Virus record (IMG/VR): IMGVR_UViG_3300032676_002149
Location: 1 to 43,593 of that record
Length of the DNA: 43,593 bases
Strand: one strand, 5' to 3'
From: a virus
How positions within the stretch are numbered: the first letter of the stretch is position 1; each line of letters begins with the position of its first letter. This document shows positions 1,094 to 42,372 of this stretch, in pieces. The translations under genes and the position numbers were made by a program. The notes beneath the pieces were generated by a model. It saw only the letters and a program-made list of their open reading frames with translations. It ran no database searches and was not told the DNA's origin.

Positions 1094-1131
1094 TGGTTTC
1101 TTTCGGTATTTTGTTGGTTCGCCGCATCCAT
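1090..1131 (-). CDS. Possible 13-aa leader ORF coupled to the next gene
   Basis: A 13-codon ORF (MDAANQQNTERNQ) starts at the ATG formed by the end of palindrome A (GCGTATG) and stops in an ATGA overlap with the gene starting at 1093. The same arrangement occurs at palindrome D before the DNA ligase. If transcription starts at or just before this ATG, the ORF would be translated from a leaderless or nearly leaderless mRNA and would deliver ribosomes to the next gene. It is too short for its amino-acid sequence to be meaningful evidence; the support is positional. Confidence 0.35.
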   Translation of the reverse strand: MDAANQQNTERNQ

Positions 1132-1146
1132 ACGCAGACAGCGTAT
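1130..1146. promoter_or_regulatory. Palindrome A, operator-like site
   Basis: Perfect 6-base arms ATACGC/GCGTAT flank the spacer AGACA. It lies about 40 bases upstream of the gene starting at 1093. On the minus strand it is preceded by a T-run (TTTTTTGCC), and an ATG begins within its last base pairs. It is one of six related sites in the first 11.2 kb and is probably a repressor or activator site overlapping a promoter. Confidence 0.6.
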
Positions 1147-1165
1147 AGTCACGGCAAAAAAGTTT

Positions 1166-2104
1166 TCAGTCATTGTTGAATCCGATGTGACGCTGCTTGC
1201 TTCCGTTCTTTCCGGCGTGATCGTTCTTGGCCTTGCGCACCTGACCTATCTCCTTGAGCAGCATCGCGGCTGTCACTTTCCAGCGGGCCGGGTCTTCCGC
1301 TGTGGAACCGGCGTAGATCGAGTTCACGCAGACATTCAGAATGTCACCACCGCTCAGTCCCTTCGCTTCAATAGCAACAACGGCAAGATCGGCCTGGACA
1401 CGATCAAGGTTGGGCAGATGCATGGCGAACAACTCGCCCCGCATGGCCGCATCGGGCAACCGGAAGCGGATATGCCGCTGGATGCGCCGGAGCAACGCCG
1501 GGTCGTAATTTCTGAACAGGTTCGTGGTGACGATCACCACGCCGTCGAAGCGGTCGAGTTCCTGCATCAGCACGTTGCGGTTCTGATTGATGGACGTGGA
1601 GCAGCTTTCACCGGAATTCACGCGGCGTGAAAGCAGCGAGTCCGCTTCGTCGAAGAAAAGCACGGCGTTATGCTCCTTCGCCTGATTGAACGCGGCGGCG
1701 ATGTGCTTGGCCGTATCTCCGAGATACTTGGAAATCACGGCGCTGTAATCCACCTGATAGAGCGGCTTGGCCAGCTGCAACGCCACGCCCAGGGCGGCGC
1801 GAGTCTTGCCCGTTCCCGGCGGGCCGTAGAAGTTGAGGATGCACCGTCCGCGCTGCGGCTGGATGCTGCTGATGTTCCAGACAGCTTCCAACTGTTCGCG
1901 GTGACGGATTGAGCGCAGACCGGCGAGAATGTCGGTTCTGACTTCCTCATGCAGGATGAGGCGTTCGAGCGCATGATGCGGCTCCGGCTGGACAAGCACG
2001 CCCAGATCAGGCGTAGCGTTTCCGTTTCCCCGGCGGCGCGGGTTTCGGTTGTCTTCGATTACCGCCGCGTCGGGCGGGAGCATGGTTTCAGTTTGGTCAG
2101 GCAT
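1166..2104 (-). CDS. AAA+ ATPase
   Basis: A 312-residue AAA+ protein. Walker A GPPGTGKT is at residues 94-101, Walker B VLFFDEAD at about 148-155, a sensor-1 TTN at 193-195 and an RR pair at 206-207 suited to an arginine finger. The core resembles the FtsH/SpoVK/proteasome-type classic AAA clade. The first 40 residues are Pro/Arg-rich and probably disordered. A clear Shine-Dalgarno sequence (AAGGAG) precedes ATG 2104. A second, different AAA+ gene lies two genes upstream. The role is probably remodelling of a DNA or protein complex in phage replication or in the amidoligase pathway nearby; the substrate cannot be told. Confidence 0.85.
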   Translation of the reverse strand: MPDQTETMLPPDAAVIEDNRNPRRRGNGNATPDLGVLVQPEPHHALERLILHEEVRTDILAGLRSIRHREQLEAVWNISSIQPQRGRCILNFYGPPGTGKTRAALGVALQLAKPLYQVDYSAVISKYLGDTAKHIAAAFNQAKEHNAVLFFDEADSLLSRRVNSGESCSTSINQNRNVLMQELDRFDGVVIVTTNLFRNYDPALLRRIQRHIRFRLPDAAMRGELFAMHLPNLDRVQADLAVVAIEAKGLSGGDILNVCVNSIYAGSTAEDPARWKVTAAMLLKEIGQVRKAKNDHAGKNGSKQRHIGFNND

Positions 2105-2119
2105 GGTGAGTTCTCCTTT

Positions 2120-2233
2120 TCATGCTTCCTTCCTCTCGCAGTTCCGCGACTGAATCCATCCGATTTGCTCGCCATATTTTTCACCATTTTTCGGAGCGGC
2201 CTTCGGTTGGCGCAGAAGTTGAATAGTGTTCAT
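2120..2233 (-). CDS. Small 37-aa protein in the intergenic repeat
   Basis: This ORF starts in an ATGA overlap with the stop of the AAA+ gene at 2230 and stops 15 bases before the next AAA+ start. It begins MNTIQLLRQP and contains KNGEKYGEQIGW, which is encoded by repeat copy 1. A matching NGEKYGDQIGW reading occurs in repeat copy 3. The coupling suggests it is translated. It could be a genuine micro-protein or only a spacer that keeps ribosomes moving between the two ATPase genes. No function can be assigned. Confidence 0.5.
   Translation of the reverse strand: MNTIQLLRQPKAAPKNGEKYGEQIGWIQSRNCERKEA
2151..2222 (-). repeat. Early-arm intergenic repeat, copy 1
   Basis: On the minus strand it reads TCAACTT...GCGCCAACCG, a variable 10-13 bases, then AAAAATGGTGAAAAATATGG followed by AAATCGGATGGATTC. 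Copies 2 and 3 share the whole length, and copy 4 only the second half. Two ATGGTGA/ATGGCGA units lie about one helical turn apart. Confidence 0.7.
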
Positions 2234-2889
2234 CGCGCTCCCTCCCAATCCATCCACGTTTCCAAATCGGCCAACGCCGCTCTAACGCAGCCGCCGCTGC
2301 CCACGGCGATTTGCGTAGCTACTGCCTTCGGCGTTTTCCAACGGCGCATCAGGAACCCGGCGATTTCATCGGTGTCAGGCGCGGCGAGTTTCACGGACTG
2401 GAACCGTGTCTGAAACCGTTCCGTCAGCAGATCGATTTGAAGGTTGCTTGTGCCGATGAACGCCTTGCCTGGCGGCAGCTTGTCCAGATAGGTCAACAGA
2501 ATGTCCTGCGCGTCCTTCGTGCATCGGTCGAGTTCATTGACGATCTTGACCGACCAATCGCTGAACAGGCTGCCGTAAGCCAGCGACGCCATCCACTGCC
2601 GCACCAAATCGACTGTCACTTCCTTCCCGTTGTAATCTTCGACGCTCATGCGGATGCCGCCGGTGAGTTCAGCGGCCACCAACTCCGCAATCGTGGTCTT
2701 GCCCACGCCCGGCGGCCCGTAGAGCAGCAACTTGCAACTGCCCGTGCGCTGGTCGCGCAAACGGCGGGCTTTTGTCACATGCGCCCTGGCCACGTCGCGG
2801 GCCTGCCCGATCAAATCATCGGGAATCGCAGGCCGGAAACTCATCGGCGACGGAGCGCGTTTGATTTTTCGTTCAGCGACCGCTGGCAT
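2230..2889 (-). CDS. AAA+ ATPase, clamp-loader/RuvB-like
   Basis: A 219-residue P-loop ATPase. Walker A GPPGVGKT is at residues 58-65. A Walker B-like strand KIVNELDR lies at about 115-122, with NEL in place of the usual DEx. A sensor-1 GTSN is at 146-149. The body resembles the small ATPase lobe of clamp-loader or Holliday-junction helicase subunits but lacks a long C-terminal lid or collar domain. The start ATG 2889 is preceded by AAAGGAGG and overlaps the end of the 59-residue gene upstream. With the other AAA+ protein and the ligase it may act in replication or recombination; this is inferred from context. Confidence 0.8.
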   Translation of the reverse strand: MPAVAERKIKRAPSPMSFRPAIPDDLIGQARDVARAHVTKARRLRDQRTGSCKLLLYGPPGVGKTTIAELVAAELTGGIRMSVEDYNGKEVTVDLVRQWMASLAYGSLFSDWSVKIVNELDRCTKDAQDILLTYLDKLPPGKAFIGTSNLQIDLLTERFQTRFQSVKLAAPDTDEIAGFLMRRWKTPKAVATQIAVGSGGCVRAALADLETWMDWEGAR

Positions 2890-3052
2890 ACGATCCTCCT
2901 TTCTCCGCTACGCGAAGGGTTGGATAATCGATTTCGCGCAGCCTTGCGGCCACGGCCACCGCGCCTTTGCGATAGACCGTGACCGCCAGCAATTCGCCGT
3001 TCACATAAACAGCGAAAAACCGCGCACCGTATTTGCGAATGGCAACGCTCAT
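2873..3052 (-). CDS. Small hypothetical protein, 59 aa
   Basis: The start ATG overlaps the stop of the upstream HTH-protein gene (TAATG), and the stop lies 17 bases inside the AAA+ gene, so it is tightly packed in the operon. The sequence (MSVAIRKYGARFFAVYVNGE, then LLAVTVYRKGA) looks like a small beta-rich domain of the kind seen in many phage accessory proteins. No motif is recognised. Confidence 0.6.
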   Translation of the reverse strand: MSVAIRKYGARFFAVYVNGELLAVTVYRKGAVAVAARLREIDYPTLRVAEKGGSYASGR

Positions 3053-3669
3053 TACCAGTTCTCCCTCCGGATGCGGGCTTTGACCGTGTTGATCGACAGA
3101 TCGAAGTGCGCCGCCGTCTGCTTCGGGCTTTTGTTCCGGCTGTAAAACCGGCGCACCATCACCCAGTTCACATCCGCGACTGTCCGTCCGCTGATTTGCC
3201 GTGCCTTGCGCGGGCGGTGAGTCCGTGCGGCTGGCGTGGCTGGCACCGCAGGCGTTTCCGGTGCCGGAGTTTCAGCCCCGTTTGCGGGCGTGGATTCGCG
3301 TTGGAAGGCGTCGAACCGGCGGCGGGTTGTGCCGGATTGTCCCGCTGATTCCAGCCCACCGAGCCGCTGCTCGATGGGACGCAGCCGCGCGCCGATGGCA
3401 TCGGTCACCGCCGAACCGATCAACGCTTCCAAGTTCACATTGCCCGAACGCCCGTTCCGGCTGAGAACCACTTCCGCAACCCGTGCATTGACCAGTTCCT
3501 TGATCAACTCGACGGGGATTTCCGTGATCGAATAGACCACTCCGGTCAGGCTTTGCAGCCCGAGCACGGACTTCATCTGCTCACGCGCCGTGCGCGGACT
3601 GTCGGCCTGCACACGGTCGTCAAAGACGATCCGCCCGGCCTTGCTTGCGATTAACTTGAACAACTTCAT
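3052..3669 (-). CDS. HTH-containing DNA-binding protein
   Basis: A 205-residue protein with three parts: an alpha/beta N-terminus (residues 1-110), a Pro/Ala/Thr-rich linker (about 125-160) and a C-terminal helix-turn-helix (PKQTAAHFDLSINTVKARIR, about 183-202). The HTH resembles those of resolvases and homeodomain-like recombination factors. The long linker suggests the HTH tethers an N-terminal interaction domain to DNA. Palindrome B lies about 105 bases upstream, inside the previous gene, and could control it. A role in replication initiation or transcription is possible; the target is unknown. Confidence 0.7.
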   Translation of the reverse strand: MKLFKLIASKAGRIVFDDRVQADSPRTAREQMKSVLGLQSLTGVVYSITEIPVELIKELVNARVAEVVLSRNGRSGNVNLEALIGSAVTDAIGARLRPIEQRLGGLESAGQSGTTRRRFDAFQRESTPANGAETPAPETPAVPATPAARTHRPRKARQISGRTVADVNWVMVRRFYSRNKSPKQTAAHFDLSINTVKARIRRENW

Positions 3670-3671
3670 TT

Positions 3672-4370
3672 TTATACTCCTTCAAGACCAGTGGTTTTCT
3701 CTTTCGGAGCGAACATCAGCGACAACTGGCCCATCCTTGCCGCGTATGCATCGCGTGCAGCCTGCACGCCTCTATCCGCAGACAGCGGATAGTTACCCCA
3801 AAAACTTTGTTTCACCGGAAGCCGGTGAACGAAATTCGTATTGCTCACCTGCATCCCTTTGAATTCCTCCCATTCGCCGTAGAGCGTGGTCGCTTTGTTG
3901 CCCAGCACGACCCAACGCCCTGGCAGCTTTTCAAGAACGTGCTGCCCCAAATGATCAACCAGCACCGCCGCAGCGCGGGTGTCGCTCATCGGGCCGTCGA
4001 TGTCGTCATGGCCACCGAGGCTCACCAGACGGTCGAGCGCTTCCTCCCAGCCGCCCCACGTTCCATTGTGGAAAAGCACGGCTTTCGTTTTTCCATGAAA
4101 AGCAAGACCGGCAGTGCGACTCACGGGGAATGGGTGACAGAGACGCGGATTCACGCCGCCGACGCTTGCCCATCGGAAATGAATCACGATCTCGCCTTTC
4201 ACATCACGGATTAGGCGGCTGAGTTGGCCAACTTTCAGATTCTTGTGCCAATAGACTCGGTTCCGTTCCCGCCATGCCATGCCCGCTCCGTGCGGGTTGG
4301 CTTCGTGGCAGGCGCGCAGGATTTCATCTGAGGGACGGATTTTGGGCGGACAAACAAGGATTACACACAT
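3672..4370 (-). CDS. Class II glutamine amidotransferase-like protein
   Basis: A 232-residue Ntn-hydrolase fold protein. Cys2 immediately follows the initiator Met, as needed for the N-terminal nucleophile of class II amidotransferases after Met removal. IHFRWAS (63-69) matches the HTRWAT-type strand, and HNGTWGG (101-107) supplies the conserved NG of the oxyanion/glutamine site. The NPHGAGMAW stretch (25-33) also fits the family. Expected reaction: glutamine hydrolysis to supply ammonia, or a related amide transfer. It lies 20 bases downstream of an amidoligase-family gene, so the two probably act together. Palindrome B lies inside its 3' end and encodes part of NYPLSADRG. Confidence 0.75.
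   Translation of the reverse strand: MCVILVCPPKIRPSDEILRACHEANPHGAGMAWRERNRVYWHKNLKVGQLSRLIRDVKGEIVIHFRWASVGGVNPRLCHPFPVSRTAGLAFHGKTKAVLFHNGTWGGWEEALDRLVSLGGHDDIDGPMSDTRAAAVLVDHLGQHVLEKLPGRWVVLGNKATTLYGEWEEFKGMQVSNTNFVHRLPVKQSFWGNYPLSADRGVQAARDAYAARMGQLSLMFAPKEKTTGLEGV
3772..3792. promoter_or_regulatory. Palindrome B, operator-like site within a coding region
   Basis: This is the longest copy, with perfect 8-base arms CTATCCGC and GCGGATAG around AGACA. It lies within the end of the amidotransferase gene and about 105 bases before the next gene. On the minus strand it is preceded by GTTTTTGGGG, like the T-runs before copies A, C and D. Confidence 0.55.
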
Positions 4371-4390
4371 AGGATTTTAGAATTGAGAAT

Positions 4391-5362
4391 TCACAGGCTG
4401 GCGTCGGGGAAGCGTTCGTCGAACTTGCGGCAAAGCCGCATCGCTTCGGCTTTGAAGGTTTCAAGGCGCTGGTGGAGCGGGCCGAACACTCCGAGTGCAA
4501 CCGGGCGGTTGCTCCCATTCCATCCGAGATAATCCCAGAGGAACTCGACCGCGCTCACCGCAGAGGCCGTGCGCTTGGTTTGCAGTTTGTTCTTCTTGAA
4601 CGCGCCGAGGCACTGGACTTCCGATGCCCGGCGGCAGAGTCCAAGCACGGTCGCCAAGTGATGCAGAATTTTGTTCAAGCTCACCGTGCCAGCGAACACC
4701 CTGAACTCAATGGCTCCGGCATACCAGGTCGGCCCGTGGCGGAAAATCTTTTGGAAATTCACCATCCCGCGTCCACAGGCAACGGCGGCGCGTTCCTTGT
4801 CGGTCACGCTGCTTGTGGCGACGATGGTGCGCATGTGCTTGGCGACATCGGACGCCAGCGTATGGCTGTAACGGTTCAGATGGCGTCCGCTGCCCGTTTG
4901 ACCGTAGAGACTGCGAGCGTGCCACTGCGCAATGTGGGCAATCTTTCTCACAAACTCGCTCACCTTGCCCGCATCGCTGGAACCGATCACCGATTCGATG
5001 CCCACGGTGATATGGACTCCGCACGAGGCATCCACTTTGGCACCGATCACGTTCAGCCATTCCACAAACCGGCATAGATGCTCAACGCCATCTTCCCCGT
5101 AGAGAATGGGCGAGACAAACTCACAGGGCATCTCACCCGGCTGGCAAACAATGGAGCCGTCCCGGTCAGCCCGCCATGTGCTGCCCATAAACTTTGGCGC
5201 GGCGACGCGGGAGCCGGCCAGGTCGATACCGCCTTGGACGGGGCGGCCACTGTGATAACCGCCGACTTCTATGCCGCATGAAAGCGGGATTTTCGTTTCG
5301 AGTTCAATGCCGAAGCGGATGGCTGCGGCTTTGGTATCTTGAGGGCGTGACTTGGTTTTCAT
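4391..5362 (-). CDS. Amidoligase-family enzyme (COOH-NH2 ligase)
   Basis: A 323-residue protein with the hallmarks of the amidoligase_2 family (glutamine-synthetase/COOH-NH2 ligase fold): FGIELET (17-23), ADRDGSI (65-71), CEFVSPIL (80-87) and CGVHITVGI (114-122). These positions normally supply the metal- and ATP-binding Glu/Asp/His residues. Family members form amide or peptide bonds using ATP. The next gene encodes a class II amidotransferase, a partnership described for this family. I chose ATG 5362 because it overlaps the upstream small ORF (ATGA) and lies 3 bases after palindrome C; there is no strong Shine-Dalgarno. The substrate (peptide tag, nucleotide or cell-wall precursor) is unknown. 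Confidence 0.8.
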   Translation of the reverse strand: MKTKSRPQDTKAAAIRFGIELETKIPLSCGIEVGGYHSGRPVQGGIDLAGSRVAAPKFMGSTWRADRDGSIVCQPGEMPCEFVSPILYGEDGVEHLCRFVEWLNVIGAKVDASCGVHITVGIESVIGSSDAGKVSEFVRKIAHIAQWHARSLYGQTGSGRHLNRYSHTLASDVAKHMRTIVATSSVTDKERAAVACGRGMVNFQKIFRHGPTWYAGAIEFRVFAGTVSLNKILHHLATVLGLCRRASEVQCLGAFKKNKLQTKRTASAVSAVEFLWDYLGWNGSNRPVALGVFGPLHQRLETFKAEAMRLCRKFDERFPDASL

Positions 5363-5553
5363 ATATCCGCTGTCTGCGTATAGGTTGCGCAAATAAAAAC
5401 CGGCTCACCGGCTTGCTTTGTTTTGGGATTGGTTGCTTTCATTGTCCTGAGCCTCGTTCGCCAGTTGCGCGTGAGTCCATCAGTATTGATCACCATATTT
5501 TTCACCATTTTTCGTGGGCAAACGCGGTTGGCGCGAAAGTTGAGGCGGTTCAC
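5359..5553 (-). CDS. Small 64-aa ORF coupled at both ends
   Basis: It starts at a GTG overlapping the DNA-ligase stop (GTGA) and ends in an ATGA overlap with the amidoligase start. It contains LNFRANR, then RKMVKNMVINTDGL, both encoded by repeat copy 2. Its last codons run through palindrome C. The double coupling argues that ribosomes cross it. It may be a real micro-protein or a translated spacer. A similar MVKN...DGL peptide appears in the coupled ORF at 9504-9608. Confidence 0.45.
   Translation of the reverse strand: MNRLNFRANRVCPRKMVKNMVINTDGLTRNWRTRLRTMKATNPKTKQAGEPVFICATYTQTADI
5365..5381. promoter_or_regulatory. Palindrome C, operator-like site
   Basis: Arms ATCCGC/GCGTAT surround TGTCT (plus strand). 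It lies 3 bases upstream of the amidoligase ATG, where it would cover any ribosome-binding site or the transcription start. On the minus strand TTTTTATTTGCGC precedes it. Confidence 0.6.
5473..5543 (-). repeat. Early-arm intergenic repeat, copy 2
   Basis: Full-length copy, reading TCAACTTTCGCGCCAACCG, then GAAAAATGGTGAAAAATATG and GTGATCAATACTGATGGACTC on the minus strand. It lies between the ligase and amidoligase genes, inside the coupled 64-residue ORF. Confidence 0.7.
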
Positions 5554-6422
5554 AAATCCCACGCTTCCCTGAACCCGATGAACTTCGGGAACCGGGGCGC
5601 TTCCTTCGCGCCGCTCGGCTGGTGCTTAAACTTCACCATGCGCCCAATCACAGCGTCCCGGTTCGCCCAGATGCTCGCGGCGGTTTCCTGATCAAATCCG
5701 CTCAGGCGAAACTCGATGCCCGTGGTGACATCTCTCACGAGGAACGCTCCCAGCGTGCCGCGTCCGACCTTGTTCTCTTTGCAACTGGAACGCTTGGTGC
5801 GCCCGAATGCGTCTTTCTCGGCGGGATTGAGATTGCTCATTCCCTCAATGCAATCGAGCACCACGGCCTCGGCGTCCTCGAACCGCTTGATCTTCAGCAG
5901 GAATCCTTCGTTCTCCGTGGAACGTCCACATTTGTAAGGGGAGTCTGGTGTCCTGACCATCACGCCCTCGTATCCCTCGGCCAGACAGCGTTCCTCGTAA
6001 GCCGCAAGCGCCGTCATATTGCGAATCTCAACGGGCAGGACTTTCACCACCCGCTCAAACTCCGGCAGCCGCGCCAGTTCCTGCATCCGGCAAGCATAGG
6101 GAACGTCGCAGCCTTCGTTAACATAATCGAATACATGGAACTCGAAGTCCGGTTCGCCGGACTCGCGACCGATGTGACCGGCGGTTTCACTGAACGTGGC
6201 ATTGCGGACGATCAATTCCCCGTCGAGACCGTCTGGCAGGTTGGCTTCAATCCATCGGCGGGTGAACTGGTTTGAGACTGGCTTGAAGGAGCGGGTCATC
6301 GCCCGACTGTTGATCTTCAGGCAGCGAATGCCGTCGAGCTTTGGCGTGGCGAACACGGGAAAGCGCAGACAGTGTGGGCGCTCGCATTTCCCGGCGAGCA
6401 TCGGTTTTACTATGGGACTCAT
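5550..6422 (-). CDS. ATP-dependent DNA ligase
   Basis: A 290-residue minimal ATP-dependent DNA ligase of phage type. Motif I PKLDG places the adenylated lysine at Lys28, followed by DGE (67-69), motif IIIa FHVFDY (95-100), motif IV EGVMVR (152-157) and motif V LLKIKR (175-180). The C-terminal 100 residues fit an OB-fold domain. It seals nicks using ATP during phage replication or repair. The start ATG 6422 has AAAGGAAA upstream and overlaps the stop of a 42-codon ORF (ATGA). Palindrome D lies 124 bases upstream. Confidence 0.92.
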   Translation of the reverse strand: MSPIVKPMLAGKCERPHCLRFPVFATPKLDGIRCLKINSRAMTRSFKPVSNQFTRRWIEANLPDGLDGELIVRNATFSETAGHIGRESGEPDFEFHVFDYVNEGCDVPYACRMQELARLPEFERVVKVLPVEIRNMTALAAYEERCLAEGYEGVMVRTPDSPYKCGRSTENEGFLLKIKRFEDAEAVVLDCIEGMSNLNPAEKDAFGRTKRSSCKENKVGRGTLGAFLVRDVTTGIEFRLSGFDQETAASIWANRDAVIGRMVKFKHQPSGAKEAPRFPKFIGFREAWDL

Positions 6423-6547
6423 TGTGGTGTTTCCTTTCGGTTTTTGTTGGTTTTCAGGCTGCGAAGCAGCGCGCCGGTCTCGGCGAGCCACTTCGCAAAA
6501 ATGGCGTGCAAGAGCAGGGAGAGAAGCGAAGTCAATGGATGGCGCAT
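6419..6547 (-). CDS. Possible 42-aa leader protein before the ligase
   Basis: The ORF begins at the ATG at the end of palindrome D (GCGTATG) and ends in an ATGA overlap with the ligase start. Its sequence begins MRHPLTSLLSLLLHAIF, a short hydrophobic stretch, and ends in a basic tail (KTNKNRKETPQ). The layout matches the 13-codon ORF at palindrome A. It could be a coupled leader or a small membrane-active peptide; there is no ribosome-binding site before it. Confidence 0.4.
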   Translation of the reverse strand: MRHPLTSLLSLLLHAIFAKWLAETGALLRSLKTNKNRKETPQ

Positions 6548-6562
6548 ACGCAGACAACGTAT
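6546..6562. promoter_or_regulatory. Palindrome D, operator-like site
   Basis: Arms ATACGC/ACGTAT surround AGACA. It lies upstream of the ligase with its leader ORF. On the minus strand CTTTTTGCGCC precedes it, and an ATG starts at its end. Confidence 0.6.
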
Positions 6563-6565
6563 AGA

Positions 6566-6784
6566 TTAGGCGCAAAAAGAGAGCTGGCCGTCGGGCGCGA
6601 TGACCGACAGCCTGCCGATGATTTTGGCGAGGTTGAATTTGCGGAGCCCACGATTTTCCACATCAAACACGGTGATCAGACCGCCGCTGCGAATGGTTTG
6701 TTCCGACGTTACAAAGCGCATTGTGCGGGCTTCACCGCTGGCTTTGATGAAGGTTCCGACATATTGGGGTTTTGGCGTTTTCAT
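6566..6784 (-). CDS. Small protein, possibly WYL_2/SH3-like
   Basis: A 72-residue protein starting at ATG 6784. The sequence (MKTPKPQYVGTFIKASGEA, then a TMRFVTSEQ and a ITVFDVENRGLRKFNLAKI segment) has the pattern of small Sm/SH3-like beta barrels (DUF2693/WYL_2) common in phage replication regions. This assignment is by pattern only. The start overlaps a preceding open frame through repeat copy 3 (ATGA). A role in nucleic-acid binding would fit the context but is not shown. Confidence 0.55.
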   Translation of the reverse strand: MKTPKPQYVGTFIKASGEARTMRFVTSEQTIRSGGLITVFDVENRGLRKFNLAKIIGRLSVIAPDGQLSFCA

Positions 6785-6812
6785 GTCTGAACCTCTTCCA
6801 CCGGTCCTCGCG

Positions 6813-6884
6813 GAGTCCATCCGATTTGATCACCATATTTTTCACCATTTGTCGTGGTAGGGGTGCGGTTGGCGCGGAAATTGA
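6813..6884 (-). repeat. Early-arm intergenic repeat, copy 3
   Basis: Full-length copy upstream of the 72-residue gene. One frame reads LNFRANR, then TNGEKYGDQIGW, and stops in an ATGA overlap with ATG 6784, although no ATG, GTG or well-placed start is visible for that frame. Another frame reads MVKNMVIKSDGL and runs into the next gene. In copy 2 LNFRANR continues into MVKN instead, so the two halves have shifted frame relative to each other. Confidence 0.65.
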
Positions 6885-6924
6885 GTCGGATTGCTTTCGC
6901 ACGCAGAATTTGATACGAACGGCC

Positions 6925-7017
6925 ATGCCCAATCAGCAAAGAATGGAAGCCCTAAAAGAATTTCCGTCGCTCAAAGCATGGCTCGACGGCGACTTTGGGA
7001 AGCGTGTCACAGATTGA
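6925..7017 (+). CDS. Doubtful 30-aa ORF
   Basis: This short plus-strand ORF (MPNQQRMEALKEFPSLKAW, then a DGDFGKRVTD end) reads like amphipathic coding sequence but has no ribosome-binding site. It lies between repeat copy 3 and the plus-strand gene at 7050. The 265-base gap between the genes starting at 6784 and 7050 otherwise holds only repeat copy 3. Confidence 0.2.
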   Translation: MPNQQRMEALKEFPSLKAWLDGDFGKRVTD

Positions 7018-7049
7018 CCGACGAGCAGAGAGCATTTTAGAATGTTGAG

Positions 7050-7799
7050 ATGAATAGAGAAATCCGAAACGAACTCCGAGACGCCATCATCGAACGCCTT
7101 CGCCCATATCTGCAAAATTGCGCGAAATTTTACATGGGAGGAGATGACGACATCGTTGAATTGAACATCCGGGAAAGCGCCGAAGATGTATCAGAACGTG
7201 TCGTGATAAGAGTCGGTATCCTGGACCATTCAACTCAACTTCACATCCCAAACATCTCCTTTCCTAGCTCTTGGAGAGGAAAAAGTGATGGCATGCGGCT
7301 GATTGACACCATTTACCGAATTGCAAGGAAGCATCGCTACGCGTTGTTTATCACTCAATGCACTGATGGATTCCACAATTACCTCCTCGGGACATGCGGT
7401 GCGTCTCGCACCGACGACGACACTGTGGAGATTACAGAAGAGACTCGTCTGGTGAACAACGGCCGACTGGCTGCACGCGAGTTCGGAGACGGTTACAAAT
7501 CATCTTATGAAGCTGCCGTCGAGTTTGACGAAATGGTCGCGTTTGGCGTCTGTCCTAACGACGTAAAGATCGTCCATGGGAGGATCACTCCTTTGACAGG
7601 AATCGACGAGGGTAGGGAAATTCACCATGCTTGGGTGGAAATGGGAGATTTCGTAGTCGAAACCTCCAACGGTCACGAGGAACGTTTCACCAAAAGCAAA
7701 TTCTACACATTGCTTCATGCAACCATCGATCATGTCTACTCCCTCAAAGAGGCGAAGGCACGTGTCGAGGAAAGCGGTAATTTTGGCCGTTGGATCTGA
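7050..7799 (+). CDS. Hypothetical cargo protein, 249 aa
   Basis: Not recognised at family level. The C-terminal half contains HAWVEMGDFVVETSNG (about residues 190-205), a pattern seen in small transglutaminase-like or papain-fold domains where a His-Ala-Trp-Val-Glu strand leads to an Asp/Glu. A cysteine in FGVCPND (about 171) could be a nucleophile, but the Cys/His order is not established. It is plus-strand within a minus-strand operon and AT-richer than its surroundings, which suggests a later insertion. No signal peptide or membrane segment. Confidence 0.7.
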   Translation: MNREIRNELRDAIIERLRPYLQNCAKFYMGGDDDIVELNIRESAEDVSERVVIRVGILDHSTQLHIPNISFPSSWRGKSDGMRLIDTIYRIARKHRYALFITQCTDGFHNYLLGTCGASRTDDDTVEITEETRLVNNGRLAAREFGDGYKSSYEAAVEFDEMVAFGVCPNDVKIVHGRITPLTGIDEGREIHHAWVEMGDFVVETSNGHEERFTKSKFYTLLHATIDHVYSLKEAKARVEESGNFGRWI

Positions 7800-7805
7800 T
7801 CACGA

Positions 7806-8156
7806 TCACGAATAGACGTTCTCCGATTCCGCGGATGCCGTTGATCCCTTATTGTAATCCGTCGCTCGCACTGACGCACTTTGTTCGAGCAATTGCTTCA
7901 AGGCGGACTGACCGCGATTCTGGATGTCCATGCCGATTGCAAGCGCTCGTTTGAGTCGGCCACGGGTGATGTTTTCAAACACAGGTTCGTTGAGCTTTTG
8001 CTCGTATTGACACTGATAGACACAATCGAAGATCGCCCGCGCAAACTCCCATGGCTGGCGGATCGGCCAGTTCTCGTGCGCCGCCCTGCTTGGCAAACCG
8101 TCTTCGATCAAAGCGCGCAAAATTAATCTGTCGGCAGTGGTGTTATGGACACTCAT
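7806..8156 (-). CDS. Hypothetical protein, 116 aa
   Basis: A mostly helical 116-residue protein with no recognised motif. It lies tail-to-tail with the gene ending at 7799. Its start overlaps the possible start of the divergent gene at 8145. AT-richer than the replication genes. It may be a small partner of one of the flanking cargo genes. Confidence 0.55.
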   Translation of the reverse strand: MSVHNTTADRLILRALIEDGLPSRAAHENWPIRQPWEFARAIFDCVYQCQYEQKLNEPVFENITRGRLKRALAIGMDIQNRGQSALKQLLEQSASVRATDYNKGSTASAESENVYS

Positions 8157-8942
8157 TGGCTTGCAATGATGTCAAGAAACGGCAAAATATTCGCCGTGCT
8201 CAAAAAACTGCTCAACGCCATAGTTTCAAACGGCGACAGGTATTGCCGCGAACATTTGGCAAAATACGATTCCGTGAAACTCTTGGAAGATTGGTGGGAA
8301 GCTTTTGATTTTTTCCTGTGTCGAGCTTGTTTACAGGGGCGTCGAGACGAAGTGTCCCTTCGGGTCTATGAAGTTGCGCGCAAGGTAATCTTGCCGCTAA
8401 TTAAAGCTCCAAAAGATTTCAAAGCCCAGAAAGAAGATGGATGGAAAGAAGTGTCTTCGCAACTCACAGCGGAGATCGGTAAGGGTAAAGTGGGAAAGGC
8501 GCGGGACGTGAAAATGATTGTCAGCGCATTGGAATTTGTGAGCAATATTCCAAACAAGAATATTGTTTCATATTCGGTTGGCCTGATTCGTGGTGGAAAA
8601 CTTAAATCGCATTACAACGAGATACAGGCTCGGAAAGCAAAAAATGGCATTACGCAAGTGGGGCCGAAAATTGCCGCTTTCTACCTCCGCGATGTTGTTT
8701 CCTTGTTCGACTTGAGCGTCGATAACAATACAGCATTTTGCCTCCAACCCGTTGACACTTGGGTGCAAAAAATTGTTGAAAAAATTGGTATCGCCCGATC
8801 GACCGACAAGACGGAAACGATTCAACAAGCGATAGTATCCATGTGCGAGAACCATAATATTTCGGCCCTTCGTTTTAATCAGGGTGCTTGGTACACGGGA
8901 TATTACGCCTTTGACATAGTATTGAACCTTCTCGCTAACTGA
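8145..8942 (+). CDS. HhH-GPD-like (DNA glycosylase fold) protein
   Basis: A 265-residue protein; ATG 8166 or 8169 is an equally possible start and would avoid overlap with the divergent gene. Residues 170-206 carry ITQVGPKIAAFYLRDV and then LQPVDTWV, matching the helix-hairpin-helix plus catalytic-Asp layout of the HhH-GPD superfamily (GVGRKTA...VDTH in endonuclease III). Numbered from ATG 8145, the lysine expected in bifunctional glycosylases is Lys175 and the catalytic Asp is Asp204. The Fe-S cysteine cluster is absent. It may excise a damaged or modified base. As isolated, AT-rich cargo it could act in defence or counter-defence. Fold call moderate, function inferred. Confidence 0.6.
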   Translation: MDTHWLAMMSRNGKIFAVLKKLLNAIVSNGDRYCREHLAKYDSVKLLEDWWEAFDFFLCRACLQGRRDEVSLRVYEVARKVILPLIKAPKDFKAQKEDGWKEVSSQLTAEIGKGKVGKARDVKMIVSALEFVSNIPNKNIVSYSVGLIRGGKLKSHYNEIQARKAKNGITQVGPKIAAFYLRDVVSLFDLSVDNNTAFCLQPVDTWVQKIVEKIGIARSTDKTETIQQAIVSMCENHNISALRFNQGAWYTGYYAFDIVLNLLAN

Positions 8943-8955
8943 AGCGCTTCGTTCG

Positions 8956-9507
8956 TTAGCGAGACAGTAAATCATCGAACAATCCCGGAATAAAAGGATT
9001 GAGCGCCTTCTGCTCTTCGCGGAAGAAATCCGCTTTCGTTTTACCCATCTTCTTACCCTTGAGTGTGTGGCAGTCGTAGGCGTAGTCAGGAATTGGCACA
9101 TACTTGGGCGCTTTCCGCAAATCCGCCGCCAGTTTCTCCGGGTCGAGTCCCTTCATCTGGTCATACACGAAATTTTGCAAATGATCGGCATCGCGGTTCT
9201 TTTTGGCCAGAGAAAGCAGAATCACGGCTTTGCTTATGAAAATGCGCCCCTTGGCCTCAGCCGCCGGCACGTTTTTGTTCACATGGAAATAGGAGTCGTG
9301 CAACGCCTTGATCTCCTGCGTCAAAATTCCCCAGCAGTCTTCGGCGCTCACGGTGAGCAGCCGTTTCCAGACATAATTGCCGTAACCACTCGACCAAAGC
9401 TCGATGGCCCAGTAGCCGGCGAGTTTGGCGTCGCCGCGCCGGAGCGCCTTCTGCATGGCCGAACTGACTTCGCCGAAATCGTAGCCCCTGACAGTCCGGA
9501 GTCTCAT
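8956..9507 (-). CDS. RarA/MgsA C-terminal-domain-like protein without the ATPase
   Basis: A 183-residue protein. AMQKALRRGDAKLAGYWAIE, then LLTVSAEDCWG, matches the post-ATPase region of RarA/MgsA, where the usual pattern is SxRGSDxDAALYWLARM followed by ASEDIG. The tail YDCHTLKGKKMGKTKADFF resembles the DVHTxRGRxMG pattern of related phage and host proteins. The AAA+ module is absent, so it may supply the tetramerisation/SSB-binding part to one of the separate AAA+ proteins of this phage. ATG 9507 overlaps the preceding small ORF (ATGA). Confidence 0.6.
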   Translation of the reverse strand: MRLRTVRGYDFGEVSSAMQKALRRGDAKLAGYWAIELWSSGYGNYVWKRLLTVSAEDCWGILTQEIKALHDSYFHVNKNVPAAEAKGRIFISKAVILLSLAKKNRDADHLQNFVYDQMKGLDPEKLAADLRKAPKYVPIPDYAYDCHTLKGKKMGKTKADFFREEQKALNPFIPGLFDDLLSR

Positions 9508-9608
9508 GTCCCGGCCTCCCATTGGAATAGTAGATGATGTTCCCATGCCTGAAGCCTCGTCGTCCGGGCTTCGCTGAGTCCATCTGTATTTTTCACCATT
9601 TTTGTCAT
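9504..9608 (-). CDS. Small 34-aa coupled ORF
   Basis: It starts 14 bases downstream (minus strand) of palindrome E and ends in an ATGA overlap with the gene at 9507. The peptide begins MTKMVKNTDGLSEARTTRLQ, related to MVKNMVINTDGL in the 64-residue ORF before the amidoligase. It arises from repeat copy 4. A second frame through the same DNA is open into the downstream gene, so the gene itself could start farther upstream. Confidence 0.45.
   Translation of the reverse strand: MTKMVKNTDGLSEARTTRLQAWEHHLLFQWEAGT
9575..9605 (-). repeat. Early-arm intergenic repeat, copy 4 (partial)
   Basis: The shortest copy: ACAAAAATGGTGAAAAAT, then ACAGATGGACTC on the minus strand. It lacks the GCGCCAACCG half and one of the two ATGGTGA units. 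Confidence 0.6.
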
Positions 9609-9621
9609 CTCTGGGTAGTCT

Positions 9622-9638
9622 ATACGCTGACAGCGCAC
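9622..9638. promoter_or_regulatory. Palindrome E, degenerate operator-like site
   Basis: Arms ATACGC/GCGCAC surround TGACA; one arm is imperfect. On the minus strand TTGGGG, 16 bases and TATAGA form a plausible sigma-70 promoter across it, directed at the genes ending at 8956. Confidence 0.45.
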
Positions 9639-9663
9639 ACCCCCAATCAGAAAGGGGGGTGCG
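9634..9663. other. G/C hairpin between two minus-strand genes
   Basis: CGCACACCCCC pairs with GGGGGGTGCG across a 9-base loop, just after the glycosyltransferase stop on the minus strand. No T-run follows, so it is not a standard terminator; it may insulate the promoter at palindrome E or stabilise an mRNA end. Confidence 0.4.
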
Positions 9664-9667
9664 AATC

Positions 9668-10447
9668 TTATTGGGCAAGGCTCACGCTTTGGCGGCGTGT
9701 AGCGTCGATGGCCACACGATCCTGACTCTTGTAATTCTCAAACCGGATATGGGCTTTCCATTTGCTCTTGAGGTAGCGTTTCTCGGCTGCGATACGTTCC
9801 GCGCTTCGGAAAAGAGAGTTGCCGCCAAGGTTCTTGTCCCGTTCCTGGACGAAACAAAAGCGGGCTTCGTTCCAGACGAGCCGGTTCACCATTAGTTCTG
9901 TCAGGGAGGCGTCGATGTCGCACTTGCATTTGAGCAGTTCATCCCACTTTGGCTCCTTGCCGATCACACCAACCGCGCCGCCGACCCAGTGGTTGATGCC
10001 GAACGGATCGTTGCGCTGCAACAGACGAGGGTCGCTCCGCTGATGCCAGCCGAACAATCGCGCCCCTGCTCCGCGCGCGCAGTAGGCGCTGTTTTCAAGC
10101 ATTGCGAGCGTTTCATCCGGTGACAGTTTTCGGCACCGCAACGATACCATGCAGACACAGGCCGAGATGTCGTCATCGAGCATGACGATGGCTTCCTCCG
10201 TAAAGCGATGGATGATCCAGTTGCGCACAGCACTCACCCCGGACACGGAATCCGGGATCGTGATTTTCTCCGGAAGCGGAACATGGCTGTACGCCTCAAC
10301 CTCGCTTTCAGGAATTACCAGTGTTGCTGTCGGGAATAGCCGGTGGCTCGTGATCGCCCGTGGTCGGCTGCGGCTCATGATGACCAGGCGCAGGCTCAAG
10401 GGCAGCAATTCCGGCCAGTCCGGGTTGTGGAGTGGTTGCTTGTTCAT
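9668..10447 (-). CDS. GT-A glycosyltransferase, possibly TET-associated type
   Basis: A 259-residue protein. LSLRLVIMSRSRP (17-29) gives the first beta strand of a GT-A fold, and IVMLDDDI (87-94) supplies the metal-binding DxD. The early SHRLFPTATLVIPESE segment and ML-DDDI resemble phage glycosyltransferases associated with DNA-base modification (TAGT-type); that subfamily call is from memory. It needs residues before Met24 for the first strand, so it must overlap the upstream ParB-like gene by up to 140 bases. No 5-methylcytosine dioxygenase (TET/JBP) is seen in the window. Target may be DNA bases or virion protein. Confidence 0.65.
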   Translation of the reverse strand: MNKQPLHNPDWPELLPLSLRLVIMSRSRPRAITSHRLFPTATLVIPESEVEAYSHVPLPEKITIPDSVSGVSAVRNWIIHRFTEEAIVMLDDDISACVCMVSLRCRKLSPDETLAMLENSAYCARGAGARLFGWHQRSDPRLLQRNDPFGINHWVGGAVGVIGKEPKWDELLKCKCDIDASLTELMVNRLVWNEARFCFVQERDKNLGGNSLFRSAERIAAEKRYLKSKWKAHIRFENYKSQDRVAIDATRRQSVSLAQ

Positions 10448-11108
10448 TTTGAAGAGCGCGTTTAGCGAGTTGGATCAGCCGCTCGCCTCTGATTACACGA
10501 CCAATGCCGATTTTCTTGGTTTTGCGAGTGATTGAGTAATCAACTTCCTTCACACCCAGGAGTTGCAGGATCAGCATCCAGTCCCGGAGATCGTGGAACA
10601 TGAAGACCAGATAATCGTGATGTTCGAACGCCTGGCATTCCATCCGTGGGATCGTTTCCACCTCATCCTCGGGCTTTTCATCATAGAGCCGGGCAATTTC
10701 GTCTTCCATGAAGCCAGTGAGTTCCACGTCGAACGCCGGGTCGCTTTCCCTGATGGATTCGATGACACGCTTCAAATCGTCCTCGTCCAGTTCGGCCAGT
10801 TCCGAGAGGCGGTTGTCGGCCAGCAGATCGGCCAGTTCCTCCGCTTCGCTTTCGTAATCTTGATAATCAACAGGGACCACCTCGACGCTCATGAGCAGGG
10901 CGGCTTCGAGTCGGCCATGCCCACGCACAATCAGACCGCTGCGGTTGCTGACGGTGATCGGCGCGCGCCAGCCTTGTTCCTGGATGATGGCAGCGAGAAG
11001 CTGGATCTGATGGGCGCTATGCTGGTTCGGGTTGACCGGGTTGGGCAGCAACTTTGCCGGATCAACCAGGGCATCATGGGCGCAATGGATTTTGAGACTC
11101 ACGTCCAT
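10308..11108 (-). CDS. ParB/Srx-fold nuclease-like protein
   Basis: A 266-residue protein with an N-terminal ParB-like domain: LLPNPVNPNQHS, then ITVSNRSGLIVRGHGRLEAA (GHGRLEAA being the classic box) and a VDYQDYESEAEELADLLADNRL helix region. Such phage proteins often accompany or are fused to DNA methylases, but no methylase domain is present. The C-terminal 45 residues are rich in Pro/His/Glu and are dual-coding with the glycosyltransferase start. The start ATG 11108 is chosen because upstream codons run into palindrome F. Likely a DNA-binding or modification-related early protein. Confidence 0.8.
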   Translation of the reverse strand: MDVSLKIHCAHDALVDPAKLLPNPVNPNQHSAHQIQLLAAIIQEQGWRAPITVSNRSGLIVRGHGRLEAALLMSVEVVPVDYQDYESEAEELADLLADNRLSELAELDEDDLKRVIESIRESDPAFDVELTGFMEDEIARLYDEKPEDEVETIPRMECQAFEHHDYLVFMFHDLRDWMLILQLLGVKEVDYSITRKTKKIGIGRVIRGERLIQLAKRALQNEQATTPQPGLAGIAALEPAPGHHEPQPTTGDHEPPAIPDSNTGNS

Positions 11109-11144
11109 TTGCCGCTTGTCAATCTTGACAGACGGCGGGGCGAT

Positions 11145-11161
11145 ATGCGTTGATAGCGTAT
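11145..11161. promoter_or_regulatory. Palindrome F, between divergent XRE and ParB-like genes
   Basis: Arms ATGCGT/GCGTAT surround TGATA. It is imperfect but matches the other copies in its right arm. It abuts the ATG of the XRE gene and lies 37 bases from the ParB-like start, the expected place for an autoregulated divergent operator. Confidence 0.5.
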
Positions 11162-11371
11162 ATGCCAAAGGCCGTGCTCAAGAACCTGCCGATGACCCAC
11201 AAAAAGTTTGCGACCATGTTGGTCGCTTTCCGGAAACGGCATAATTACAGTCAGCGTGATGCTGCCGTGGCGCTTGGGTGCTCAAAGCGTACATTGCAAA
11301 ACTGGGAGCAAAAGCGCGCAATGCCGCAGGGGTTCGGGCTGCAAGCCATTTGCCAGATTATCAAGGAATGA
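11162..11371 (+). CDS. XRE-family helix-turn-helix regulator
   Basis: A 69-residue single-domain HTH protein. KFATMLVAFRKRHNYSQRDA, then ALGCSKRTLQNWEQ, is a typical XRE/Cro fold (helices 1-4). It lacks a dimerisation or protease domain, so it is Cro-like in size. The start at 11162 directly abuts palindrome F with no Shine-Dalgarno; ATG 11192 is an alternative. It is divergent from the early operon. It is the only small repressor-like gene beside the six palindromes, making it the best candidate for their ligand (inference). Confidence 0.75.
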   Translation: MPKAVLKNLPMTHKKFATMLVAFRKRHNYSQRDAAVALGCSKRTLQNWEQKRAMPQGFGLQAICQIIKE

Positions 11372-11390
11372 AGCCCAAAGTTTTGAGCAC

Positions 11391-12206
11391 ATGCCATTGA
11401 AAGACATCATTGCAGCCCAACACGCGTGGGCACGGAGCCGATGGTCAGGACACGTAGGTGCGCGCGCCCCCTCCGTCGAGGCAAATCTTATTCGTCCTCT
11501 ATCTGTAGAGACACGAAGCGACTTTCAGGCGGCTCGCGGGGGAGAACTAGGGCACCATGGAAAGCCGGGCAAGATGAGTTCGTTGCGCTCTTCATCTGCC
11601 CTGAGCTACAACGTCTTTGACCCATGGCGCGGTGCCGATCTACGGCCGCTTGCCAACGCTCTCGGGGCGAAGATTCGAGGGAATGCACTTAGCTTCGAGC
11701 AGCAGTATCATCACGGGCTTAGCAGCATCCCACCTCACATCGATGTCGTGCTCGACGGAGATCAGATTCAGCCTCTTGGGATCGAGTGCAAGTTCACGGA
11801 GCCGTATGGAGACAAGAAAAGCCACGCTCCTCTCGAGGATAAGTACTTTTCTAACGGCAAGAAGCGATGGTCGGCCTGCGGTCTGCCGCTCTGCCAAGAG
11901 TTGGCGAGTGCGGTTGGACACGCAGTGAACTACCGGCGGCTATCCGCAGGTCAACTGCTGAAGCATCTGCTCGGGCTTGCATACACGACTCGCCAGTCGC
12001 CTCGTCTTTGGTACATCTGGTTTGACAGTGGATGTGAGGAAGCGGCGGAGCATCGGATAGAGGTTCAAGATTTTGCTGATCGCATTGATGACGGGGTAAC
12101 CTTCGTGGCAATGACCTACCAGGAACTTTTTGCACGGATCGATCCGGATATGGCCCCTATTCCCAATTATTATTCATATTTGTCGAAGCGATATTTCACC
12201 GAATAA
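11391..12206 (+). CDS. Putative restriction endonuclease (PGN_0703-like)
   Basis: A 271-residue protein. The N-terminus (SRWSGHVGARAPSVEANLI, then GKMSSLRSSSALSYNVFDPW) matches the signature I remember for PGN_0703-type putative restriction endonucleases. A PD-(D/E)xK core is visible: HIDVVLDG with Asp118, then GIECKF with Glu132 and Lys134. No methylase partner is nearby. It lies between the regulator and the terminase, a usual place for cargo genes, and may cut competing phage or host DNA. Confidence 0.6.
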   Translation: MPLKDIIAAQHAWARSRWSGHVGARAPSVEANLIRPLSVETRSDFQAARGGELGHHGKPGKMSSLRSSSALSYNVFDPWRGADLRPLANALGAKIRGNALSFEQQYHHGLSSIPPHIDVVLDGDQIQPLGIECKFTEPYGDKKSHAPLEDKYFSNGKKRWSACGLPLCQELASAVGHAVNYRRLSAGQLLKHLLGLAYTTRQSPRLWYIWFDSGCEEAAEHRIEVQDFADRIDDGVTFVAMTYQELFARIDPDMAPIPNYYSYLSKRYFTE

Positions 12207-38043: not shown

Positions 38044-38916
38044 CTAAATGCTTTCTACAGCGGCCATCCGCTCGAACTCAGGAAACAGGTCTGAGTGCTT
38101 CGCGGATATGAAGCGTACCACCTTGGCGTTTTCGAGAAGTCGTTTCAGGTATCCGCGTATCACGGTGAAGTTGAGCATGTTTTCGGCATAGGCGTCCTCT
38201 ATGGCTTTGAAGTCGCGCTCAAGCACTTCCATTTCAGCCTCCATTTTTGCGAGATCCTCCGGCGAGATGGATTTTACCTTGGGTATTTGCGGATCGACCA
38301 GCTGATCCTTAACCGTCACCATGAACAGACCATCCGCATACCCCTTCGTGAAATTGTTTGCGCCGACCATCAGCTCGGCAATCTCGATTTGCCTTACAGC
38401 CGTTACGCGCTTGAGAATTCGGAAAACAGCAGGACTCAACTGCTTGTCCTTGAGAAGCTCGACCGCCTCCTCGTGAATCCCTCGGAGCATGTTCAGGCGT
38501 GATTTGATTTCCCTCACGTCCATGTCCAGCGCGGCAGCGATCCGCTCGACCGCGACACCGTTTTTCACCGCGCGGGTGATCATGGCGTGTTCCTGAATCG
38601 GGGACAGGCGGTTGATCCGGGAGTTGTAGGTGAAGCTCTCGTCCTCGGTTGATATCAGGCACTCGACCTCTTTTATCCCGATCTCGCGCAACGCATACAA
38701 TCGCAGATGTCCGTCCATGATTAGGTATACCCCGTCTTTGCCTTTTTGCGGATAGACCATCAGCGGTTCGATAACACCGACTTCCCTGATTGATGAAACG
38801 ATGGAACGATAGCGGGTCACCTTTTTCTCGGGATCGGACAAATGCCGCACCGGGAGCAGCTGGGAGAGCTGGAGGGTTAGGCGCTCAAACTGGAAACCGA
38901 CGACAGGCTTATTCAT
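38044..38916 (-). CDS. RepB/ParB-like partition protein 1
   Basis: A 290-residue protein with an N-terminal ParB-like domain (IEPLMVYPQ, then LIMDGHLRLYALREIGIKEV with GHLRLYA box) and an HTH region (VERIAAALDMDVREIKSRLN). The C-terminal 150 residues match RepB-type plasmid partition proteins. It overlaps the neighbouring partition-like gene by ATGA. With the second copy and the serine recombinase it forms a three-gene operon. Confidence 0.75.
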   Translation of the reverse strand: MNKPVVGFQFERLTLQLSQLLPVRHLSDPEKKVTRYRSIVSSIREVGVIEPLMVYPQKGKDGVYLIMDGHLRLYALREIGIKEVECLISTEDESFTYNSRINRLSPIQEHAMITRAVKNGVAVERIAAALDMDVREIKSRLNMLRGIHEEAVELLKDKQLSPAVFRILKRVTAVRQIEIAELMVGANNFTKGYADGLFMVTVKDQLVDPQIPKVKSISPEDLAKMEAEMEVLERDFKAIEDAYAENMLNFTVIRGYLKRLLENAKVVRFISAKHSDLFPEFERMAAVESI

Positions 38917-39800
38917 GCCGCCCTCCGGGGTTCAGAGTTAATGCGTTCCGATAGGCATTTGGGGATGGTGCCGAGATCTTCAGCGCGAAGCAGATTTACG
39001 AAATTCTCATCGTCGAGCAGACGCTTGAAGCCGGTGACAAGAAACATGAGGCTTGCTTCGCAGTGCTTGGCCTTTTTCACCATTACCTTCTGGCGTTGAG
39101 TTTCCTTGCGGAAAGCATTCACGTACCCGTCAGCGGTCGTGCGCGGGTTCTTGCCGCGTTGGCTGGAACGCATGCGCTTTCCAAGAAACTTTCGCTGCTC
39201 GATGATACGCTTCACCGTCCTTATTGAGGCCTGATTGAGCTGCTTGTTCTCGTATGCTTTGAGCAGCTCACGCTGGGCTTCAACGGATTCGGTTTTCGCA
39301 ATGTCGATGGCCACTCCCAAAGGGATTTTCCCCTTCAGAGCTGCATCAAGCAGGCGTTCTTCGCCCGCTTTTTTAAGCACCAGCAGCCCGCCGACCAGGC
39401 CGTCGGCGATATCCAGTTTCTTGCCAATGGCCAGTTTGCTGTATCCAGCCTCCGTGAGCCGCTCAATCTCGTGGATCAGGTCCATCGGTGACGAAAAACG
39501 TCGCGCCATGTTTTCCACCAAGCTCATCAGAAGGCGGTCCTCCTTTGGAACTTCGACAACCACGGCAGGGATTTCGGTGTACCCCAGCGCCTGGTAAGCC
39601 TCGATGCGGCCCTGCCCGCAAACCAGATCGTATCCCGGCTCCTCGCCGTCTTTGACGATCCGGTTGCTTACCTTGATCGGCTTTTTCAGGCCGAGGTTTC
39701 GAATGCTGTTGAGAACCTTTTCAAATTTCTTCCGATCCCTGGCTCGCGGGTTCAGAATTCGGATGAGTTCAATGGGGATGAGTGTGACGGATTCGTTCAT
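38913..39800 (-). CDS. RepB/ParB-like partition protein 2
   Basis: A 295-residue ParB-fold protein: KKPIKVSNRI, then LVCGQGRIEAYQALGYTEIP (GQGRIEA box) and VENMARRFSSPMDLIHEIER, followed by an HTH (YSKLAIGKKLDIADGLVGGL). Related in architecture to the following gene. ATG 39800 overlaps the recombinase stop (ATGA) and its own stop overlaps the next start. Likely DNA binding in the cassette rather than phage partition. Confidence 0.75.
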   Translation of the reverse strand: MNESVTLIPIELIRILNPRARDRKKFEKVLNSIRNLGLKKPIKVSNRIVKDGEEPGYDLVCGQGRIEAYQALGYTEIPAVVVEVPKEDRLLMSLVENMARRFSSPMDLIHEIERLTEAGYSKLAIGKKLDIADGLVGGLLVLKKAGEERLLDAALKGKIPLGVAIDIAKTESVEAQRELLKAYENKQLNQASIRTVKRIIEQRKFLGKRMRSSQRGKNPRTTADGYVNAFRKETQRQKVMVKKAKHCEASLMFLVTGFKRLLDDENFVNLLRAEDLGTIPKCLSERINSEPRRAA

Positions 39801-41341: not shown

Positions 41342-41736
41342 GGAAATAGGGGAAGGGGGTGGCCGGACATGCCTGCGGGATGTTTGGAGCGATGGACATC
41401 CCCGCAGGTGCCTGCGAATCGCGCATCGCAGAAAGATCAAAACCATTGCCACCGGTTCTCGGTCGCACCCGCAGGTTTTCATGGCGGATATTTTGGTGTT
41501 TCGGGCACACCTCCCCACAAGCCCTCGACGCTCCAGAAATGCTCAGAGGGAAATCATGGGTCGATTCAGATTTTTTGGCACGGTTGGAGGACTTTTTTGG
41601 CAATCGCCCCTCAATCGGCGGGTTCCAAGGTGTGGCGTTCATTCACGGGGCGCGATTTTCGGCGGATTCCCTCGGTTGGAAACAAACGAGTTGTGTGGGG
41701 ATGGAATCCCGGCTCGCCTCCAATCATCCCTGCTGT
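41342..41736. other. Gene-poor gap with a hairpin upstream of the recombinase
   Basis: About 395 bases with no convincing gene, though a 102-codon Pro-rich frame exists on the minus strand. A hairpin lies at 41372-41408: CCTGCGGGATGT and ACATCCCCGCAGG form a 12-base-pair stem with one bulged base. A further GCCTGCG repeat adjoins it. This could be the recombinase att/res site or a regulatory hairpin. Confidence 0.45.
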
Positions 41737-42288: not shown

Positions 42289-42348
42289 CCTCGATAGTCG
42301 CACATGCCGGTTTGCTCGGTTGCGTGCGGGGGCTAGGCGCATCGGCAA

Positions 42349-42366
42349 GATCGTTGCGCAACGATC
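42349..42366. repeat. Long palindrome, copy 3, beside the integrase
   Basis: GATCGTTGCGCAACGATC is a perfect 18-base palindrome 6 bases from the integrase stop. Eighteen bases (42351-42368) are identical to 12233-12250. Confidence 0.6.
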
Positions 42367-42372
42367 CACTGA

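Follow-up and report, generated by a model that had tools for sequence, protein, structure and literature searches.

The six palindromes in the early region of this phage genome, together with the small XRE protein encoded beside one of them, are very probably operators and their repressor. This reading comes from sequence comparisons, as the protein and the palindromes change together across about 60 relatives. We give a probability of roughly 0.83 to the explanation as a whole, i.e., that a dimer of the XRE protein would bind all six palindromes and shut down its own gene as well as the early genes. What the data contribute directly to this explanation is the existence of the palindromes, their confinement, their conservation and the covariation between helix and operator.

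The window, i.e., the whole stretch of DNA that was analysed, corresponds to one whole IMG/VR virus record (43,593 bases), and it is the genome of a temperate phage of Verrucomicrobiota. Its plus strand carries the terminase, portal, head protease, head and tail genes, and at the right end there are one serine recombinase and one tyrosine recombinase. The leftward early block encodes two AAA+ ATPases, a GATase-like protein, an amidoligase, a DNA ligase, a glycosyltransferase-like protein and a ParB-like protein. In bacterial genomes, the ParB-like protein has its relatives in Verrucomicrobiota, with the sole exception of a Clostridiales assembly that matches at 55% across part of the protein; one relative belongs to a prophage in the cultured strain Chthoniobacter flavus Ellin428. 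No close relative was found when the INPHARED phage records were searched with the ParB-like protein, and the papers searched contained none on Verrucomicrobia prophage operators.

Three other features of the genome can be seen. Two ParB/RepB-family genes (38044-40028) lie beside the serine recombinase and a DUF6431 gene in the region 38044-42369, with the tyrosine recombinase farther right. The amidoligase, GATase-like, glycosyltransferase-like and ParB-like genes are grouped at 3672-5362 and 9668-11105, which suggests modified DNA bases. Finally, the genes at 7050-7799 and 8145-8942 are on the opposite strand, are without family matches and are without a match in the nearest relative, L010, which also holds only part of gene 7806-8156. 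The region 7050-8942 is probably a later insertion.

The pattern ATACGC-N5-GCGTAT was searched with at most two mismatches over all 43,593 bases, using dinucleotide shuffles as the background. Six palindromes were observed versus 1.04 expected from the mean of the shuffles, and six were reached in none of 100 shuffles. The next-best sites in the window carry three mismatches, and all six palindromes are restricted to the early region. They are the same six sites with a 5-base spacer that the sequence-only reading had described, except that the one placed at 3772 starts at 3774.

Five of the predicted operators are on the minus strand. Site 1130-1146 lies between the AAA+ ATPase gene 1166-2104 and gene 395-1093, and site 3774-3790 is found within the 3' end of the GATase-like gene (3672-4370), upstream of gene 3052-3669; both are placed alike in L010, L165, L090, L085 and L167. 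The location of site 3774 inside a coding sequence is a detail missed by the earlier reading. Site 5365-5381 is 2 nt ahead of the amidoligase ATG (5362) and has counterparts in Chthoniobacter-type prophages. The sites at 6546-6562, between gene 6566-6784 and the ligase gene, and at 9622-9638, upstream of gene 8956-9507, are kept in L010. The sixth predicted operator (11145-11161) lies in the divergent gap between the parB-like and XRE genes and extends up to the start codon of XRE. Another family of repeats, about 75 bp long and with a ATGGTGAAAAATATGGTGATCAA-like sequence, also lies on the minus strand upstream of early genes (2152-2227, 5473-5548, 6813-6889 and 9576-9620); short ORFs or a promoter may be part of it, and it is also present in L010.

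The XRE protein (11162-11371, plus strand) is a HigA2-like regulator of 69 amino acids with a single HTH domain and is the likely binder of the six palindromes. Its ORF adjoins the last of them, as had been pointed out from the sequence. The match to Pfam HTH_3 (1.7e-7, 31.6 bits, cut-off 23) identifies an XRE-type HTH, and the AlphaFold model is all helical with a pLDDT of 88. The best solved-structure matches of the family profile are to Vibrio cholerae HigA-2 (4e-9 to 4e-8), and a Foldseek search with the model also puts HigA2 (5jaa) on top, with a weak E of 0.005 and a probability of 1.00. The gene directly behind XRE in the window encodes a REase-ARP-like nuclease (11388-12206), while in many relatives terS is found there instead.

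By footprinting, the operator of V. cholerae HigA2 is TGTACGC(N)5GCGTACA; it begins after the -35 and extends over the -10, and the bases are contacted by Arg68, Glu71, Asn72 and Arg77 (PMC11006873). The core TACGC-N5-GCGTA is common to this operator and to site 1130. The XRE protein has a homologous HTH with the four base-contacting residues, which align with R43, Q46, N47 and R52. Within the XRE family R43 is nearly invariant, N47 and R52 are invariant, and many relatives have E at position 46. Both proteins have an HTH domain with S-x-R-T-L-E-N-W-E-Q-x-R, and HigA2 is autoregulated from an operator behind the -35, as we propose for XRE. However, HigA2 is an antitoxin that has a disordered arm for binding its toxin and one operator, unlike XRE, for which six predicted operators are scattered over the early genes. 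A toxin gene (HigB) was looked for beside XRE among the adjoining genes and was not found, and XRE is therefore not classed as a toxin-antitoxin antitoxin. The kinship with HigA2 is the strongest support from outside. By this analogy the XRE dimer would also bind and repress, and the step from kinship to binding, although indirect, is short.

Scans with XRE, gene 8956-9507 and the ParB-like protein gave about 200 loci in 134 contig clusters. In L010 all six palindromes are at the same places as in the window, and at the 102 palindrome positions compared there are no changes at 72 arm positions and five at 30 spacer positions (p = 0.0017). The parB-side gap was scored for the general palindrome form NTNCGY-N5-RCGNAN in 64 non-identical relatives where XRE adjoins the ParB-like gene, and in 36 relatives without XRE whose ParB-like gene is preceded by 1.4 kb of sequence or more. 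The palindrome is present in 60 of the former versus one of the latter (Fisher p = 3e-21, uncorrected for kinship), and this lone match looks like a chance-level one. The sequence-only reading had held that a motif common across the host chromosome would speak against it; in the 7.8 Mb of C. flavus, four of the five exact subtype matches lie inside the prophage, within 5.5 kb. As in a system of dispersed operators, there are several copies of one site, which is phage-specific rather than host-specific.

The palindrome exists in several subtypes, and these track residues of the XRE helix. Changes of residues and bases were counted on a tree of the ParB-like protein. At the XRE operator, Thr/Ser at residue 44 and arm position 3 agree in 60 of 60 cases, with three changes each, one of which is seen in L220 alone. 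The outer arm base matches SQ or TQ of helix 2 in 58 of 60 cases; for the inner base and NWEQ or NWEI the agreement is 60 of 60, through a single change. The distal sites have an outer A in 72% of cases with SQ versus 29% with TQ (p = 4e-8). The Thr/Ser-44 rule was also tested at the distal sites, where it does not hold; it was rejected as a general specificity rule and is valid at the XRE operator only. At matching early-gene borders an outer A is found in 22 of 24 cases in the window and L010 versus 7 of 42 in L165, L090, L085 and L167, four Chthoniobacter-type phages in which the arms are switched at five matching sites. Judged by these counts, the early-gene sites have shifted together with the XRE protein. 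The covariation rests on one to three independent changes per residue, and the traits were picked after viewing the alignment, so it is suggestive, not proof. The kinship with HigA2 and the shared operator core, the joint presence and absence and the covariation strongly support XRE as the shared regulator suspected earlier.

The XRE gene has a predicted -35, TTGACA (11125-11130, plus strand), 31 nt ahead of its ATG. Among the relatives the distance from TTGAC to the XRE start codon is mostly 27-32 nt; the ATCCGT subtype has 35-39 nt, and a single outlier has 24. The position of the operator varies from 3 to 14 nt behind TTGAC, with the TTGAC-to-start distance mostly constant. Two ATGCGTCAGTC-subtype contigs are without TTGAC there, and two other contigs carry an inserted gene. 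The -10 hexamers are weak. From a -35 at such a distance, transcription would begin no more than a few bases from the start codon, and this spacing supports a putative near-leaderless, self-repressed promoter.

The gap between parB and XRE also contains the inverted repeat TGTCAA-N2-TTGACA (11117-11130). Binding of one dimer to its two halves is unlikely, because their spacing varies from 2 to about 11 among the relatives. TGTCAA was considered as the -35 of the divergent parB gene and rejected, as the parB start codon is too close. The ATCCGT-type phages have an extra palindrome at the terS start with TTGAC ahead of it (8230-8246 in L112), and thus the packaging genes may share an XRE-type control.

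At four sites an ATG lies 0-2 bases from the edge of the palindrome or uses the AT of its arm (11162, 5362, 1131 and 6547), in agreement with the earlier description. However, only those of XRE (11162) and of the amidoligase (5362) are main predicted gene starts, and those at 1131 and 6547 are not. On the minus strand, short ORFs are found at 1131-1090 (13 residues), 6547-6419 (42) and 9608-9504 (34), and in each of them the TGA overlaps the ATG of the next gene, a feature noticed after the fact. From their arrangement they may be leader ORFs coupled to the following gene. In L010, the edge ATG at site 6546 opens a 138-aa gene.

The T-rich stretch reported for four sites was recovered about 9-11 nt upstream, in the early-gene sense, at 1130, 3774, 5365 and 6546. 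The four elements are on the minus strand, at 1154-1161 (sense TTTTTTGC, a T-tract with the GC element of the logo described below), 3797-3804 (TTTTTGGG), 5389-5399 (TTTTTATTTGC, with a terminator-like stem, z -2.3) and 6571-6578 (TTTTTGCG, which overlaps gene 6566-6784 at its end). In a logo built from 26 non-redundant distal sites, picked for having a T-run whatever its exact position, T stands at -14 to -10 and G and C at -9 and -8 ahead of the palindrome; TTTTTGC is common to the family's distal sites, about 6 nt ahead of the palindrome. Of the 271 palindrome-like matches in contigs with XRE, 61 have a T-run, versus 5 of 89 elsewhere, with a background of about 5%. The T-tracts were rejected as intrinsic terminators, the mean z over the 26 distal sites being -0.5; a clear stem is seen at four of them (3774 and 5365 in the window, and one each in L129 and L137).

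How XRE would act at the distal sites is less clear-cut than at its own gene. The sequence-only reading took the palindromes for promoters of leaderless or very short-leader mRNAs under a shared regulator. Only at the XRE gene is this supported, in a near-leaderless form, by the mostly constant 27-32 nt between TTGAC and the start codon. The edge ATGs that start XRE, the amidoligase and the extra gene in L010 would also fit XRE-controlled leaderless mRNAs for each early gene, as would the ATGs at or near the edges at 1131, 6547 and 9608, whose ORFs overlap the next ATG through their TGA. At the other five sites several observations speak against it. With a rough textbook matrix compared against shuffles, none of the 26 distal sites has a sigma70-like promoter below p 0.1, and the distance from TTTGC to the ATG, about 21-26 nt, is too short for a -35. 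In addition, site 3774 lies within a gene, two of the edge ATGs are not main gene starts, and in the relative L090 the amidoligase start codon is inside the palindrome behind a Shine-Dalgarno-like AAAGGAG, so that an untranslated leader is needed. We consider leaderless promoters at each early gene unlikely. It is possible, but doubtful, that the distal sites are instead stoperators, where bound XRE would block the elongating polymerase as in Cluster A mycobacteriophages: the sites are at gene borders, with one inside a gene, they are oriented with transcription and have a T-tract at a fixed upstream place, and a promoter was not seen. However, the element is palindromic and has only 5-6 copies, and as a rule no hairpin stands ahead of the T-tract. 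Only tentatively can it be speculated that the distal TTTTTGC-N6-palindrome acts as an independent control element: it could be a type of non-sigma70 promoter in Verrucomicrobiota phages, or a stoperator at which a pause on the T-tract and a bound HigA2-like repressor would jointly halt transcription, with short edge-ATG leader ORFs coupled to the next gene.

Two further readings are very improbable. The ParB-like gene (10308-11105) adjoins one site and two more ParB/RepB-family genes are present at 38044-40028, so the palindromes could be parS-like sites of a ParB-family protein. However, the 36 relatives that have the adjacent ParB-like gene without XRE contain the palindrome in a single case, at chance level, and the arms covary with the XRE helix; ParB was rejected as the binder on the evidence of these XRE-less relatives. 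Equally hard to credit is that the palindromes act in RNA as hairpins masking start codons. Some arms do fold into stems of 7-8 bp, but the XRE site serves two divergent genes, and the core matches a footprinted DNA operator, that of HigA2 (PMC11006873). Site 5365 and L010 retain A-G mismatches, the folds there reaching only -3.3 kcal/mol, and the hairpin reading is rejected because these mismatches are conserved.

We suggest that the repressor and its operators would work as follows. The XRE dimer would place one HTH on each ATMCGY half-site, with the 5-bp gap between them. In the gap between the parB-like gene and XRE, it would cover the stretch behind the TTGACA -35 and repress its own near-leaderless promoter, and the rightward genes behind XRE would probably be repressed too. 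At the five leftward early-gene borders, which belong to replication and DNA-modification genes, XRE would lower expression, either through occlusion of a promoter or as an obstacle to elongating RNA polymerase; both fit. As a guess, its role may be that of a lysogeny repressor or of a Cro-like late shut-off.

In all likelihood the control is of a known kind, here in a little-studied phage group. The conserved inverted repeats of phiC31 and the c1 operators of phage P1 are examples where one repressor acts on dispersed early-gene operators, with repressors and site sequences that are not known to be related to those of XRE. Lambda Cro and CI are small HTH regulators with a divergent control region and a leaderless cI mRNA; however, the lambda operators are clustered, while the sites here are spread over gene borders. 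In Cluster A mycobacteriophages (L5, Bxb1) there are also many repressor sites at gene borders, and the repressor and the site motif diverge together (PMC6550527). However, these stoperators are 13 bp long, are described as asymmetric and oriented, and number up to about 30 per genome, and their repressor is a different, larger protein than XRE (PMC6550527).

The approximately 60 relatives, in several operator subtypes, form a natural series of repressor-operator pairs in which an antitoxin-type HTH without a toxin is linked to a whole-phage regulon and operator specificity may be predictable from a few helix residues. A cultured host strain can also be named, Chthoniobacter flavus Ellin428, which carries a related prophage. 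The repressor-operator pairs would also aid the prediction of mutual immunity among these phages.
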